Origin: Psychrobacter coccoides
Lineage (GTDB): Bacteria; Pseudomonadota; Gammaproteobacteria; Pseudomonadales; Moraxellaceae
NCBI RefSeq assembly: GCF_017498085.1
Contig: NZ_JAGBKM010000002.1
Span: 1-64,000 of the forward strand
Direction of reading: 5' to 3'
DNA: 64,000 nucleotides
Below the pieces are notes generated by a model, which saw only the letters and a list, made by a program, of their open reading frames with translations, had not been told where the DNA came from and did not search any database. Numbering within the stretch: position 1 is the stretch's first letter; every line of letters begins with the position of its first letter. The position numbers were made by a program, and so were the translations under genes. Shown here piece by piece: positions 7,367-16,894 of this stretch.

Positions 7367-9052
7367 ATGAGTAAGGAGACATCATTACAAACAGTGAGCG
7401 AACAGTTTGCTAAGCATGGGGCTAGTGAGCGTCTAAAGCCCAATCTTTTAAGCCAGTTCTCTTTGGATAAAGATGAGCTAAGACTGGCGCTGGTGACCGC
7501 TCAATATGCGCTGCGAGCGACACGTCAACAAGAGCCGCCAACCATCAATGAACCGACAGGCCTCTTGGTACTCGTCAATGGTATGGAGCAAGCGGGCAAG
7601 GGAATGGCTGTCAAGCAGCTTAGACAGTGGGTTGATCCTCGGTTGTTAAAGGTTGAAGCCACCATTGGCTATCCACCACTTGCGCATCAGCCCATTTGGC
7701 AAGTGCACACCAAGTCTCTGCCACGTCATGGAGATGTGATGGTTTATTTTGGCAACTGGTATGCTGATCTGCTGTATAACGTCATGCAAATGGCTGCAAG
7801 TGACTATCAAAGTAGACAAACAGATGGTGAGCAGGTAGGTCATACTCATAAGCTACCGACTGCAAAATGGCGTGCCTACTTACAGCAGCAACTACAGGCA
7901 TTAAGTGTCTTTGAAGAGGATCTCGCCGCCAATCAGACTGAAGTACTTAAATGCTGGTTCCATGTCGATACAGAGGTATTACAGCAACGTCTGCAAGATG
8001 AAAAAAAGGACCCTGAGTACTTGTATCAGATAGATTGGAGTGATGCAGAGGTGTTGGCACAGTTTAATCAGGTAGCAACCGAGCTGTTGAGGCAGCAAGG
8101 CGACTGGATCATCATTGATGGCAGCGACAAGGCGCAAGCGGCAACTGACTTCTGTCATCATGTGCTGCAGGCCATGCAAAAAGCTTTGGCCAGTAATATC
8201 GTGTCTGCAAATAGTGCTCTTGAGTCGACAGATGATAGGGATAAAAACCAGCAAAGAGTGAATGATCAAGAGATCAAGCAGCAACATAGTAATGATGGTC
8301 AGCAAGGGTTTAAAGCTGTCAAGATACCTTATGAGCTGATAGATATCGATGATCCAGATATGGATAAGTCAGATTATCATAAACAACTGGACAAAAAACA
8401 AACCAGACTTGCCCAGCTCTTACGAGCGCGTCAGGGTCGCCATGTGGTCTTTGCTTTTGAAGGTATGGACGCTGCTGGCAAAGGCGGTGCCATAAAACGT
8501 CTAGTAGCACCTCTCGATCCCCGTGAGTATCAAGTTTATAATATCGGTGCACCCATGCTCTATGAGCTACACCATCCCTATCTGTGGCGATTTTGGACAC
8601 GATTGCCTAATGAGCGTGAGGATCGGATGAGCCGTATCGCCATTTTTGATCGTACTTGGTATGGTCGGGTGTTGGTCGAACGTATCGAAGGCTTTGCCAC
8701 AGATGCTCAGTGGCAGCGAGCGTATGAGGAGATAAATCGCTTCGAGTCTCAACTCGTAACGTCAGGTACGATAGTGCTAAAGTATTGGCTCGCGATAGAC
8801 AAAAAAGAGCAGCTTGAGCGCTTTGAGGATAGAAAAGAGACGCCGCATAAGCAGTTTAAGCTGACAGAAGATGACTGGCGTAATCGAAAAAAGTGGTCAG
8901 ATTATGTGCAGGCAGCAGCAGATATGTTGGCACGCACCGATACTCAAGCAGCGCCTTGGTGTGTGGTGGCGACCAATGATAAGCGGACGGCGCGCTTGGC
9001 TGTTCTGGACTATGCTATCACACAGTTAGAGGCGCATTTGTCAATAAGCTGA
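7367..9052 (+). CDS. pap: Polyphosphate:AMP phosphotransferase (two-domain PPK2)
   Basis: A 561-residue protein with two tandem PPK2 domains, the layout of class II PPK2 (PAP), which makes ADP from AMP using polyphosphate. The N-terminal domain (about 35-265) has a degenerate P-loop, NGMEQAGKG. The C-terminal domain (about 320-555) has the full set: FEGMDAAGKGG, lid-region basic residues, and FDRTWYGRVLVERIEGF. The C-terminal domain is therefore probably the catalytic one. An Asp/Gln/Asn-rich linker of about 45 residues joins them. GGAGG lies 6 bp before the ATG. The phosphate transporter gene follows on the same strand after 545 bp, which suits a phosphate-storage role. Confidence 0.92.
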   Translation: MSKETSLQTVSEQFAKHGASERLKPNLLSQFSLDKDELRLALVTAQYALRATRQQEPPTINEPTGLLVLVNGMEQAGKGMAVKQLRQWVDPRLLKVEATIGYPPLAHQPIWQVHTKSLPRHGDVMVYFGNWYADLLYNVMQMAASDYQSRQTDGEQVGHTHKLPTAKWRAYLQQQLQALSVFEEDLAANQTEVLKCWFHVDTEVLQQRLQDEKKDPEYLYQIDWSDAEVLAQFNQVATELLRQQGDWIIIDGSDKAQAATDFCHHVLQAMQKALASNIVSANSALESTDDRDKNQQRVNDQEIKQQHSNDGQQGFKAVKIPYELIDIDDPDMDKSDYHKQLDKKQTRLAQLLRARQGRHVVFAFEGMDAAGKGGAIKRLVAPLDPREYQVYNIGAPMLYELHHPYLWRFWTRLPNEREDRMSRIAIFDRTWYGRVLVERIEGFATDAQWQRAYEEINRFESQLVTSGTIVLKYWLAIDKKEQLERFEDRKETPHKQFKLTEDDWRNRKKWSDYVQAAADMLARTDTQAAPWCVVATNDKRTARLAVLDYAITQLEAHLSIS

Positions 9053-11460: not shown

Positions 11461-13101
11461 TTACGCCTCTAAAGCATGAGCGCTATCAGACGGTGTGCTT
11501 TTAGCATCATCAGTACCAAACTGTTGACGTTTTTTGGCAAAGAAGCGATCCAAGCGATCCATAGCGTCTTCTAAGTCATGAAGGTTGGGTAAAAATACCA
11601 CTCGGAAGTGATCAGGAGTGTCCCAATTAAACCCTGTGCCTTGTACCATCAGCACTTTTTCTTCAAGCAAAAGATCCATCATAAATTGCATGTCGTCTTG
11701 AATAGGATAAATATCAAGATCTATCTTGGGGAAGCAGTAAAATGCACCTTGTGGCATGGTGCAGGAGATACCAGGAATGGCATTCAAGCGAGAGACTGCC
11801 ATTTCACGTTGCTTGTATAGCCGCCCAGACTCCGCTGTGAGCGCTTGCATGCTTTGATAGCCACCCATAGCCGTTTGAATGGCATATTGCCCTTGTACGT
11901 TTGAGCATAGACGCATAGACGCAAGCATGTCTAAGCCTTCAATAAAGTCTGTGGCATGCTGCTTTTTGCCCGATACCATGAGCCACCCTGCTCGAAACCC
12001 TGCGATTCGGTGCGATTTTGATAGGCCATTGTAAGAAAGTACCAGTACGTCATCTGTCAAGGTGCTCATCGGAGTATGTACGCAGTCATCGTAAAGGACT
12101 CGGTCGTAAATCTCGTCTGCCATCAACACCAAGTCATGTGCTTTAGCCACTTCAATAAGCTGTTTGAGGACATCATCTGAGTACAGGGCGCCGGTTGGGT
12201 TGTTAGGGTTAATCACTACGATACCCTTGGTTTTGCTGGTTATTTTGGCTTTAATATCCTCGATATCAGGATGCCAGTTGTCATCTTCATTGCAGCGGTA
12301 ATGCACCGCTTTACCTCCAGCAAGGTTGGCTGCTGCTGTCCATAAAGGGTAATCTGGCATAGGAATCAATACCTCATCACCGTCATCCATCAGCGCTTGC
12401 ATGGTCATCACAATCAGCTCAGAGACGCCATTACCCAAGTAAACATCACGTACATCAACAGCAGACAGCAAGCCTTTTGATTGATAGTACTGTAAGACGG
12501 CTTTACGTGCCGAAAAAATCCCTTGTGAATCTGAGTAACCCGTCGCTTCCGGCAGGTTCATGGATACATCACGTAATATCTCGTGCGGAGCCTCTAGACC
12601 AAACGGAGCAGGGTTACCCACATTTAGCTTAATAATACGCTGGCCTTCTGCCTCCATTTGTACAGCAGTCTTTAGTAGCGGACCTCGAATGTCATAGCAA
12701 ACATTTTGTAATTTTGTGGATTTTTTTAGTGAAGCCATAGTCGTGCTACCTGTCGTTGTCTTATTGTTAAACGCTTCGTTATAATTTGTTGTTGCTACCG
12801 ACTTGCTGTCTTGTTTGTCAGCTGTGTTGGTGGGTGTTTCGTTATTGGCTTGGCTGTCTTTTGATTTGATCTCACCACGTAACAAGTAACCTTCACTACA
12901 TCCTAAAATACGAGCAAGCGTTGGCAGTTTTGAAGAAACGATACCATTTGTTCCACGTTCCCAATTAGAGATGGCGCCCCGGCTCACTTTGGCTCCCGCC
13001 TTGGTCATGGCTTGCGCCAGTTGTTCGGCTGTCAATCCTTTATCACGACGCAGCTGTATTAAGCGTTCAGCTTGTGCCAGCCGTTCTTTATTATCACTCA
13101 T
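11461..13101 (-). CDS. alaA: XRE-type HTH domain fused to an AlaA-type aminotransferase
   Basis: The 546-residue product has two parts. Residues about 12-75 form a Cro/C1-type helix-turn-helix (RDKGLTAEQLAQAM, then VSRGAISNWERG, then LARILGCSEGYLL). A polar linker (about 80-120) leads to a class I PLP-dependent aminotransferase that tracks E. coli AlaA closely: KLQNVCYDIRGP, KLNVGNPAPFG, NPNNPTGA, and the Schiff-base lysine in NGLSKSHRIAGFR (Lys about 362). AlaA makes alanine from pyruvate and glutamate. E. coli AlaA is 405 residues, so the HTH is an addition. An in-frame ATG at 12738 (MASLKKS) has AGG upstream and would yield an enzyme without the HTH. Two palindromes lie just upstream of the gene. 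Autoregulation is inference. Confidence 0.92.
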   Translation of the reverse strand: MSDNKERLAQAERLIQLRRDKGLTAEQLAQAMTKAGAKVSRGAISNWERGTNGIVSSKLPTLARILGCSEGYLLRGEIKSKDSQANNETPTNTADKQDSKSVATTNYNEAFNNKTTTGSTTMASLKKSTKLQNVCYDIRGPLLKTAVQMEAEGQRIIKLNVGNPAPFGLEAPHEILRDVSMNLPEATGYSDSQGIFSARKAVLQYYQSKGLLSAVDVRDVYLGNGVSELIVMTMQALMDDGDEVLIPMPDYPLWTAAANLAGGKAVHYRCNEDDNWHPDIEDIKAKITSKTKGIVVINPNNPTGALYSDDVLKQLIEVAKAHDLVLMADEIYDRVLYDDCVHTPMSTLTDDVLVLSYNGLSKSHRIAGFRAGWLMVSGKKQHATDFIEGLDMLASMRLCSNVQGQYAIQTAMGGYQSMQALTAESGRLYKQREMAVSRLNAIPGISCTMPQGAFYCFPKIDLDIYPIQDDMQFMMDLLLEEKVLMVQGTGFNWDTPDHFRVVFLPNLHDLEDAMDRLDRFFAKKRQQFGTDDAKSTPSDSAHALEA

Positions 13102-13163
13102 AACTATCTCGCCTTATTTCACTGACAAGCTTGTTCAAACGCCTGTATGTGTTATTGTTCACT

Positions 13164-13186
13164 TAATGCAAGATTTTATTGCATTA
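13164..13186. promoter_or_regulatory. Palindromic operator candidate 1
   Basis: TAATGCAA (13164-13171) and TTGCATTA (13179-13186) form a perfect 8-bp palindrome with a 7-bp centre, 63 bp upstream of the HTH-aminotransferase start. It shares the core TGCAAGAT with the second palindrome. Sites of this size fit an XRE-family dimer. Confidence 0.5.
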
Positions 13187-13215
13187 GTTGTAAGACTGCA
13201 AGAGGATAATTGAAT

Positions 13216-13244
13216 ACTAATTGCAAGATTATCTTGCAATTAGT
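13216..13244. promoter_or_regulatory. Palindromic operator candidate 2 (29 bp, perfect)
   Basis: A perfect palindrome of 14-bp arms around a single T at 13230: ACTAATTGCAAGAT and its complement. It lies between the divergent HTH-aminotransferase and msrB genes, about 115 bp from the former and 160 bp from the latter. It has no T run, so it is more like a protein-binding site than a terminator. It shares TGCAAGAT with palindrome 1. Confidence 0.55.
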
Positions 13245-13403
13245 GTTTGGTCATTAAACCAGCTGAAATGCCTCTCGTTTAAGTTTAGTAAATAAGGATA
13301 ATTTGACCTTGTAACTTAAGTAAAAACTATCATATCTTAGGTTAGATTATTGACCCTAAGAAGTGTTTAACCAACTAGATGATTAACCAACAAAGGATAA
13401 ACC

Positions 13404-13829
13404 ATGCAAGACAAGCAACTTAGTCCAGAAGAGATAGCGCAGTTGACAGAAGCTGACTGGAAAGAACGCCTCAGTAGTGAGGAGTATCGGGTGATGAGAG
13501 AAAAAGGCACAGAGCGCCCATTTACTGGTATGTACAACGATATCAACGATGAAGGCGTTTATCGCTGTAAAGGCTGTGGCGCTAAGCTATTTGATTCAGA
13601 GCGCAAGTTTGATGCGGGTTGTGGTTGGCCCAGTTTTGATCAAGGGGTAGACAGCGATGCAATCGATGAGCATATTGATGACTCTTTAGGAATGCGCCGA
13701 ATCGAGGTGACTTGTAGTCATTGTGATGCACACTTAGGGCATGTCTTTCCTGATGGTCCACGTGAGACTACTGGCATGCGTTACTGTATTAACTCGGTAG
13801 CTATCGACTTGGATAAAACAGCTAAGTAA
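13404..13829 (+). CDS. msrB: Peptide-methionine (R)-S-oxide reductase MsrB
   Basis: MsrB reduces methionine-R-sulfoxide in proteins. The 141-residue protein has the two zinc-binding CxxC pairs (Cys55/Cys58 in CKGCG and Cys104/Cys107 in CSHC), the GCGWPSF segment, and the catalytic cysteine in RYCINS (Cys128). There is no signal peptide, so it acts in the cytoplasm. AAAGGA precedes the ATG. The glutathione peroxidase gene follows 25 bp later, giving a small oxidative-repair operon. It is divergent from the HTH-aminotransferase, whose operators could also affect it. Confidence 0.96.
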
Positions 13830-16063: not shown

Positions 16064-16192
16064 CCCAAGTGCCATAGAATAAGTAAAAATAAAGTTATAT
16101 TTGTTACATTACTAAGTAACATTCTGATTTAAATAGCATTATAATGTTATCTCAATCGCCTATACACCAACTATCCACATATGGAGCAATAC

Positions 16193-16894
16193 ATGTCACA
16201 ATCAAATCCTCAGGATTTTATCAACCAGTTCAACGAAAACACACAAAAAATGTTTGAGCCTTGGACTAAGCTTAACCAAGCTTTTCTAAGAAATGCTGAA
16301 ACAATGACTGAGTTTTCACTCAATACGATTAAGTCTTATTCTGAAATGGGCTTAGAAAACATGCGTCAAGTGGCTGGTATCGACTCACCAGAATCAGCAA
16401 AAGATTTTAATAGTAAGCAAGCTGAGATGCTGAATGTTATTAGCCAGCAAATGCTAGCAGATGCCAAACGCATGACAGAGCTTGGCAATAATATGCAAGA
16501 AGAAGTCATGAAAGTCTTGAGTGAAGTTCATGGTGAAACCAATGAACAAGTTCAGGCCAACATGCAAAAAGCTGCAGACCAAGCCAAGAAAAAAGCCCAA
16601 GAATATACAGATAACATGAATAAGATGGCAGAAAAAGCAACTGAACAAGTTTCTAAAGCTGCTGAACAAGCCACTAAAGCTGCCGAACAAGCAACAGCCG
16701 CAGCAACTAAGGCTGCTGAGCAAGCAACAGCAGCGGCGACTAAAGCTTCTCAGCAAGCTTCAAAGTCTGCCTCTGCTGCAAAGTCTGCCACTACGGCAAA
16801 GCCTGCAACTGCTGCAAAATCAGCATCTACTACAGCGTCTTCTAACGCTAAAACGGCGTCTACCAGTAGCAATACTAAGTCAGCCAGTAAGTAG
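16193..16894 (+). CDS. phaP: Phasin (PHA granule-associated protein)
   Basis: Phasins coat PHA granules and control their size. The 233-residue protein has an N-terminal phasin_2-like amphipathic region (about 1-125: FINQFNENTQKMFEPW at the start, then long helices). A C-terminal tail (about 145-233) is made of Lys/Ala-rich repeats such as KAAEQATAAAT, then a Ser/Thr/Ala-rich end, resembling histone H1-like PhaF tails. I chose ATG 16193 because GGAG lies 6-7 bp upstream; ATG 16181 overlaps that site. A hairpin terminator follows, so phasin may be made in excess of PhaC. Confidence 0.9.
   Translation: MSQSNPQDFINQFNENTQKMFEPWTKLNQAFLRNAETMTEFSLNTIKSYSEMGLENMRQVAGIDSPESAKDFNSKQAEMLNVISQQMLADAKRMTELGNNMQEEVMKVLSEVHGETNEQVQANMQKAADQAKKKAQEYTDNMNKMAEKATEQVSKAAEQATKAAEQATAAATKAAEQATAAATKASQQASKSASAAKSATTAKPATAAKSASTTASSNAKTASTSSNTKSASK

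Follow-up and report, generated by a model that had tools for sequence, protein, structure and literature searches.

A Cro/C1-headed AlaA transaminase of Psychrobacter as a probable autorepressing trigger enzyme, and the differing heads and upstream motifs of its Moraxellaceae relatives

The window analysed here, a stretch of 64,000 nt from Psychrobacter coccoides, carries on its minus strand a gene for a protein of 546 amino acids (positions 11461–13101), which starts with ATG and forms an open frame without an internal stop. The predicted protein consists of an XRE (Cro/C1-type) helix-turn-helix head (residues 12–77; 12871–13068, minus strand), a linker of 44 residues (residues 78–121; 12739–12870, minus strand), and an AlaA-type transaminase (residues 122–546; 11464–12738, minus strand). 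The head is supported by its Pfam match, by the helices of an AlphaFold model and by pN/pS. HTH_3 matches residues 15–73 with 27.4 bits against a cut-off of 23, and HTH_19 and HTH_31 score slightly under their cut-offs; these are the only Pfam families matched by the head at E ≤0.001, and the GntR-type winged helix is not among them. In the AlphaFold model of the fusion, the head is a five-helix domain (helices 4–21, 25–34, 41–49, 56–66, and 70–75) with a block pLDDT of 67–90 across residues 1–80. The pN/pS of the HTH part is 0.11 (820 pairs from 41 Psychrobacter loci); for the enzyme, the value over its first 85 residues is 0.07 (820 pairs). The HTH part is under purifying selection. The linker varies in sequence and in length (35–83 amino acids in the 41 Psychrobacter loci), and its pLDDT in the model is below 50. 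In a family sample of 149 genomes, the fusion is present as one open frame in all 41 Psychrobacter genomes, and therefore the XRE-AlaA fusion is genuine and not an assembly error.

The C-terminal part has a class I aminotransferase fold and is closest to AlaA; Aminotran_1_2 of Pfam matches residues 156–515 (E 4.6e-58), and 401 residues from residue 122 onward align with Escherichia coli AlaA (PDB 4cvq) at E 2.8e-169. All 13 mapped positions of E. coli AlaA are identical in the fusion (Y136, I138, R139, P141, Y189, Y251, N301, D329, Y332, K362, R370, Y455, and R500). Among them, K362 (12016–12018, minus strand) is the Schiff-base lysine, aligned with Lys240 of E. coli AlaA, and Y136–P141 (12679–12696, minus strand) is the substrate-closing plug, corresponding to Tyr15–Pro20 of the E. 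coli enzyme and lying about 15 residues past the start of the enzyme part. No other match of AlaA grade exists in its genome, where the runner-up reaches 27% identity. The best NCBIfam match is the alanine aminotransferase model NF006230, at 348 bits below its curated cut-off of 534, and since none of the NCBIfam models listed reached its cut-off, the assignment to AlaA is made by homology and residues. AlphaFold models the enzyme part poorly, probably since it was given only 14 close rows. With its catalytic residues intact, the protein is probably an active AlaA-type alanine transaminase. The original prediction of an XRE-type DNA-binding domain fused to an AlaA-type aminotransferase is thus borne out by the Pfam domains and the 41 genomes, as are its placing of the head in the Cro/C1 type rather than with the winged helix of MocR/GntR regulators (HTH_3 above cut-off) and its claim that the AlaA catalytic motifs are kept, including a Schiff-base lysine at about residue 362. 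Its reservation that two separate genes might have been joined by a sequencing error finds no counterpart in any of the 41 Psychrobacter genomes. As regards its other reservation, an HTH region unable to bind DNA, the HTH is conserved and so is its putative site.

Divergent from alaA lies msrB (13404–13829, plus strand; Pfam SelR). The region 13160–13245 between the two genes, which had been pointed out as a possible operator, does hold two operator-like palindromes, both given here on the minus strand. The far one, O1 (13222–13238), reads TGCAAG-N5-CTTGCA and is the core of a longer palindrome of 35 bp with one mismatched pair (13213–13247) in the spacer to msrB. The near one, O2 (13167–13183), reads TGCAATAAAATCTTGCA, one mismatch from this core. 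Alignment of 40 loci on O2 points to a putative −10 box, TAAAAT (13173–13178, minus strand; genus consensus TAATAT), inside O2 and, 17 nt from it, a putative −35 box, TTGCAG (13196–13201, minus strand; genus cTTGCA), which resembles an operator half-site and whose TTGCA is kept in at least 80% of the loci. With O2 covering the −10 box and with a half-site-like −35 box, the near palindrome is in the position expected of a repressor site. A plain consensus promoter scan called no promoter in the stretch upstream of alaA, because TTGCAG agrees with TTGACA at three places only.

Both palindromes occur in 39 of the 41 Psychrobacter loci; one of the remaining two is cut by a contig end and the other has O2 alone. 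The genus form of O2, TGCAATAATATCTTGCA, is found in 40 of the 41 loci when A or T is allowed at one place. Of 26 Psychrobacter genomes, 24 hold its exact form a single time (none for the reversed-pattern control), and in all 10 of these with alaA coordinates it lies directly upstream of alaA; since O2 of the window has TAAAAT for TAATAT, the genome of the window counts among the two that lack this exact form. In the genome of the window, the exact O1 core occurs twice, here and at one place with the spacer CACGT, and the core with at most one mismatch gives 16 forward matches (2 here and 14 elsewhere) vs 3 for the reversed control. The spacings between O1 and O2 in 39 loci (44–45, 52–56, 59–61, 64–65, 70–71, 81–82, and 92 nt) fit no single helical phase, so that phasing of the two sites was rejected and DNA looping is not claimed. 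Among 42 distinct O1 sites, the flanks of the core pair above shuffled partners at distances 1 and 4, with 7 and 23 of 2000 shuffles, respectively, scoring as high, and at the other distances no clear symmetry beyond the core was seen. At locus L019, O1 is extended well past its core to a perfect palindrome of 33 bp with one central base, at −207 to −175 upstream of the fusion, and at two loci of genus g7 (L043 and L079) a second, different palindrome, TTAATTTTGTCAGTATTTCTGACAAAATTAA, is located at −65 before the XRE-headed gene.

The N-terminal heads on AlaA of Moraxellaceae are of at least three kinds, and the upstream motif differs with the head. From 190 loci scored, 15 with cut upstream DNA or no AlaA start were omitted, and removal of eight genome repeats from the remaining 175 left 167 distinct loci, which are related to one another. 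First, the palindrome core with at most one mismatch, defined on Psychrobacter loci that are themselves counted, is found in 61 of 68 distinct loci with the XRE head and in none of the 99 other loci; the XRE-headed loci without it (L044 with its copy L163, L045, L053, L057, L078, L084, and L085) are all outside Psychrobacter and belong to divergent lineages. Second, an Acinetobacter-type head (MSQKKSV...FKSYLYRYAK; L055, L056, and L126–L205 from Acinetobacter, L046 and L086–L088 from g9) goes with two or more RAGCAA words within 200 nt upstream in 48 of 48 loci, a pattern seen in 0 of 119 other loci. The motif common to these loci is a direct repeat, with a pair 11 bp apart in 13 of 17 Acinetobacter and g9 loci, and no conserved palindrome was found upstream of alaA with this head. 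A single RAGCAA is present in 5 XRE-headed, 1 g11 and 4 headless loci, and several Acinetobacter species without this head are likewise without the repeats. Third, the head of g13 (...FRKDPNFVGELKKGRSPR...; L051, L052, and L106–L110) is accompanied by ATAGG-N6-CCTAT in 7 of 7 loci and 0 of 160 others, a palindrome of the TATAGGGAATA-CCTAT type that is strictly kept just ahead of the start. None of the three motifs occurs in the 41 distinct headless loci; one g10 locus on the Moraxella side (L048), which has lost its head, lacks the palindrome too. By shuffling of the upstream DNA, about 0.2 palindrome, 2.4 two-repeat and zero ATAGG-N6-CCTAT loci are expected among the 175. A fourth head, beginning with MYFVNKK, occurs without any of the three motifs in g11 (L049, L082, and L083), where a conserved upstream stretch ends in AAATCGGTTAA; with three sequences only, this is too few for a claim.

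On a tree of 86 enzyme-part rows, 14 changes of head state are needed; most XRE heads and the Acinetobacter-type heads are in neighbouring clades, and the third head is grouped among headless relatives. Five independent pairs on well-supported branches are available for the Acinetobacter-type head, and the repeats follow the head in all five (sign test, p 0.0625); of two such pairs for the XRE head, one agrees and one is without a difference. Genus names rest on 100% identity of six locus pairs: the genus of the window is Psychrobacter (Psychrobacter sp. GP33, P. aquaticus, and P. piechaudii), g15 is Acinetobacter (A. beijerinckii and Acinetobacter sp. HY1485), and Moraxella atlantae belongs to g7.

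The original prediction that one protein may be both enzyme and regulator is in keeping with the domains and catalytic residues, with the palindromes, with a near site found once per genome and with the way head and palindrome occur together across the family. Judging from the sequences, the fusion is probably a trigger enzyme of the PutA type, that is, an AlaA transaminase whose tethered XRE head would bind the two palindromes at its own promoter and repress its own gene, probably as its single target. First, the fusion would bind O1 and O2; second, this binding would repress alaA; and third, the AlaA dimer would supply paired heads. Two HTH heads would then be borne by the dimer on flexible tethers and, when the protein is abundant or in one of its ligand states, would occupy O2 and perhaps the half-site in the −35 box, with O1 helping; heads bound at O2 would block RNA polymerase. 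More speculatively, binding may be set, via the N-terminal plug, by the active-site state (alanine/pyruvate or glutamate/2-oxoglutarate, PLP or PMP). The N-terminal arm of E. coli AlaA is described as helping to form the dimer interface, and its plug residues Tyr15, Ile17 and Arg18 as appearing fully ordered only with substrate (PMC4094517). Since the head of the fusion is tethered directly before this arm with its plug (residues 136–141), ordering of the plug by substrate is a natural candidate for the switch and could thereby control binding by the heads.

Alternatively, the head may be a structural leftover or have another role, and a separate transcription factor may bind the palindromes and control alaA. 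This is unlikely, although binding of the palindromes by the fusion is what we infer from sequence and although the core is missing in 7 of the 68 distinct XRE-headed loci, for three types of head are each found with a different motif and none of these motifs occurs in the 41 distinct loci without a head; a separate factor could account for this only by coming and going with the head each time. Even less probable is that the palindromes serve msrB, regulated either by the fusion or by another protein. The sites do lie within the spacer shared by alaA and msrB, and a divergent msrB is present in 63 of 74 XRE-headed loci, as it is in 48 of 49 with the Acinetobacter-type head, 7 of 7 with the third head, 3 of 3 of g11 and 32 of 42 headless ones. 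However, O2 is on the alaA promoter, the 32 headless loci have a divergent msrB yet no palindrome, and four loci (L043, L079, L080, and L118) have the palindrome without msrB in the 2.7–3.1 kb before the enzyme part. On present evidence msrB is outside the circuit, and joint control of alaA and msrB may nevertheless occur. It is very improbable that the protein is a pure regulator with its enzyme activity lost, even if the joining of an HTH domain to an aminotransferase fold is the plan described for MocR (PMC5320631), because all 13 mapped AlaA positions are identical, no other AlaA-grade protein is seen in the genome (next best 27%) and the head is not of the GntR type. Finally, separate production of the two domains, with the fusion a reading artefact and AlaA translated from M122, hardly deserves credence and was rejected: of 41 loci, 35 have an ATG where AlaA begins, but Met is missing there in the other 6, only 4 of 41 show an SD-like word ahead of this inner start, the HTH is conserved at the protein level and the whole frame is kept open in 41 of 41 genomes.

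The preferred reading, an AlaA that represses its own gene through its own head, has relatives among known enzymes and regulators. The head of PutA is a ribbon-helix-helix and that of the fusion an XRE domain, and NadR carries a head of the Cro/C1 type. PutA of E. coli, an enzyme of proline use, is described as having a DNA-binding domain of its own, as repressing its own gene and as binding solely to the spacer that separates two divergent genes (PMC8249747). Like PutA, the fusion joins an enzyme and a DNA-binding domain in one chain, here with a putative site in its own promoter, but the enzyme is another one, and PutA also controls the gene for a proline transporter whereas control by the fusion is indicated for alaA only. 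NadR of E. coli and Salmonella, which is grouped with PutA, BirA, PepA and PyrH as a trigger enzyme, has another enzyme activity and is described as multi-target (PMC8249747), in contrast to the fusion, whose near site is single in 24 of 26 genomes. MocR, GabR, PdxR and TauR share with the fusion the plan of a DNA-binding head on a PLP-binding class I aminotransferase fold (PMC5320631). These regulators, however, have a GntR winged-helix head and mostly regulate other genes, whereas the fusion has an XRE head, an AlaA enzyme with intact catalytic residues and a putative site in its own promoter; because its head is not of the GntR type, it is not a MocR factor. E. coli AlaA (4cvq) belongs to the same enzyme family and has the same catalytic and plug residues but no DNA-binding head.

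Within trigger enzymes, the novelty lies in another enzyme, an XRE head and a family whose head differs between genera together with the motif. Among the papers listed by a search confined to open-access literature, none appears, by title or opening of the abstract, to describe a fusion of AlaA to a DNA-binding domain. If true, the proposal would add a second aminotransferase-based regulator design beside MocR and would, to our knowledge, be the first case of a single enzyme whose DNA-binding head differs between sister genera along with the operator. It opens to direct test the questions of how enzymes turn into transcription factors and how a head changes in step with its operator. It would also give a candidate control circuit for alanine in Acinetobacter; there the annotation of the headed protein names just an aminotransferase, the A. 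baumannii record WP_000078703.1 being called simply a PLP-dependent aminotransferase.

As to whether the pairing of the two domains occurs beyond Moraxellaceae, a question raised by the original prediction, an answer can be given for AlaA relatives: within the family the XRE head is found in six genera (Psychrobacter, g7, g8, g10, g14, and g16), and outside it no head was detected in the class. The class sample comprised 369 genomes; AlaA matches at E ≤1e-100 were obtained in 38 from outside the family, and 0 of the 38 matches reach the head. Seven extra-family loci with long open frames were inspected and have no head (two further ones, with frames of 461 and 469 amino acids, were left out). 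For the XRE head, a sample of 398 genomes from the phylum gave only two matches at E ≤1e-10, both of them this fusion in Psychrobacter, in what is a test of close relatives only.

Other heads are found at the same place on AlaA with their own motifs, so that self-control of alaA would have arisen at least three times or have been rebuilt by head swapping. It is quite possible, though we hold this with some reserve, that AlaA is a swap site for DNA-binding heads, in which the own-promoter logic persists through joint exchanges of head and operator, at least one head derives from plasmid DNA-binding proteins, and the N-terminal plug, beside which every head is tethered, serves as a built-in sensor through which whatever head is acquired would respond to alanine metabolism. 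The XRE head has two weak plasmid matches and no close plasmid relative. For the Acinetobacter-type head, 58 records of a plasmid collection match; 4 are A. baumannii AlaA itself and 54 are less than 60% identical, and the 16 listed among those 54 are all annotated as hypothetical protein. Of five plasmid relatives inspected upstream, two from Acinetobacter plasmids sit behind 11-bp tandem repeats (L222, 1012–1145; L223, 1016–1139), which precede small hypothetical-protein genes; these small proteins may form a family of DNA-binding proteins of plasmids that is still uncharacterised. Similar words were seen by eye upstream of L218 and L221 and none upstream of L220. RAGCAA occurs 1, 0, 0, 2 and 0 times upstream of the five, so that the plasmid repeats share only a GCAAA-like core with it. 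The g11 head has weak matches in 23 plasmid records, all typed as mobilizable.

Elsewhere in the window, an open reading frame at 16181–16894 has a repetitive C-terminal part rich in Ala, Lys and Thr (KAAEQAT...), and the frames beside it are presumably polyhydroxyalkanoate genes. At 7367–9052 there is a polyphosphate kinase 2 gene with three PPK2 stretches, which adjoins a gene for a PHO4-type phosphate transporter.
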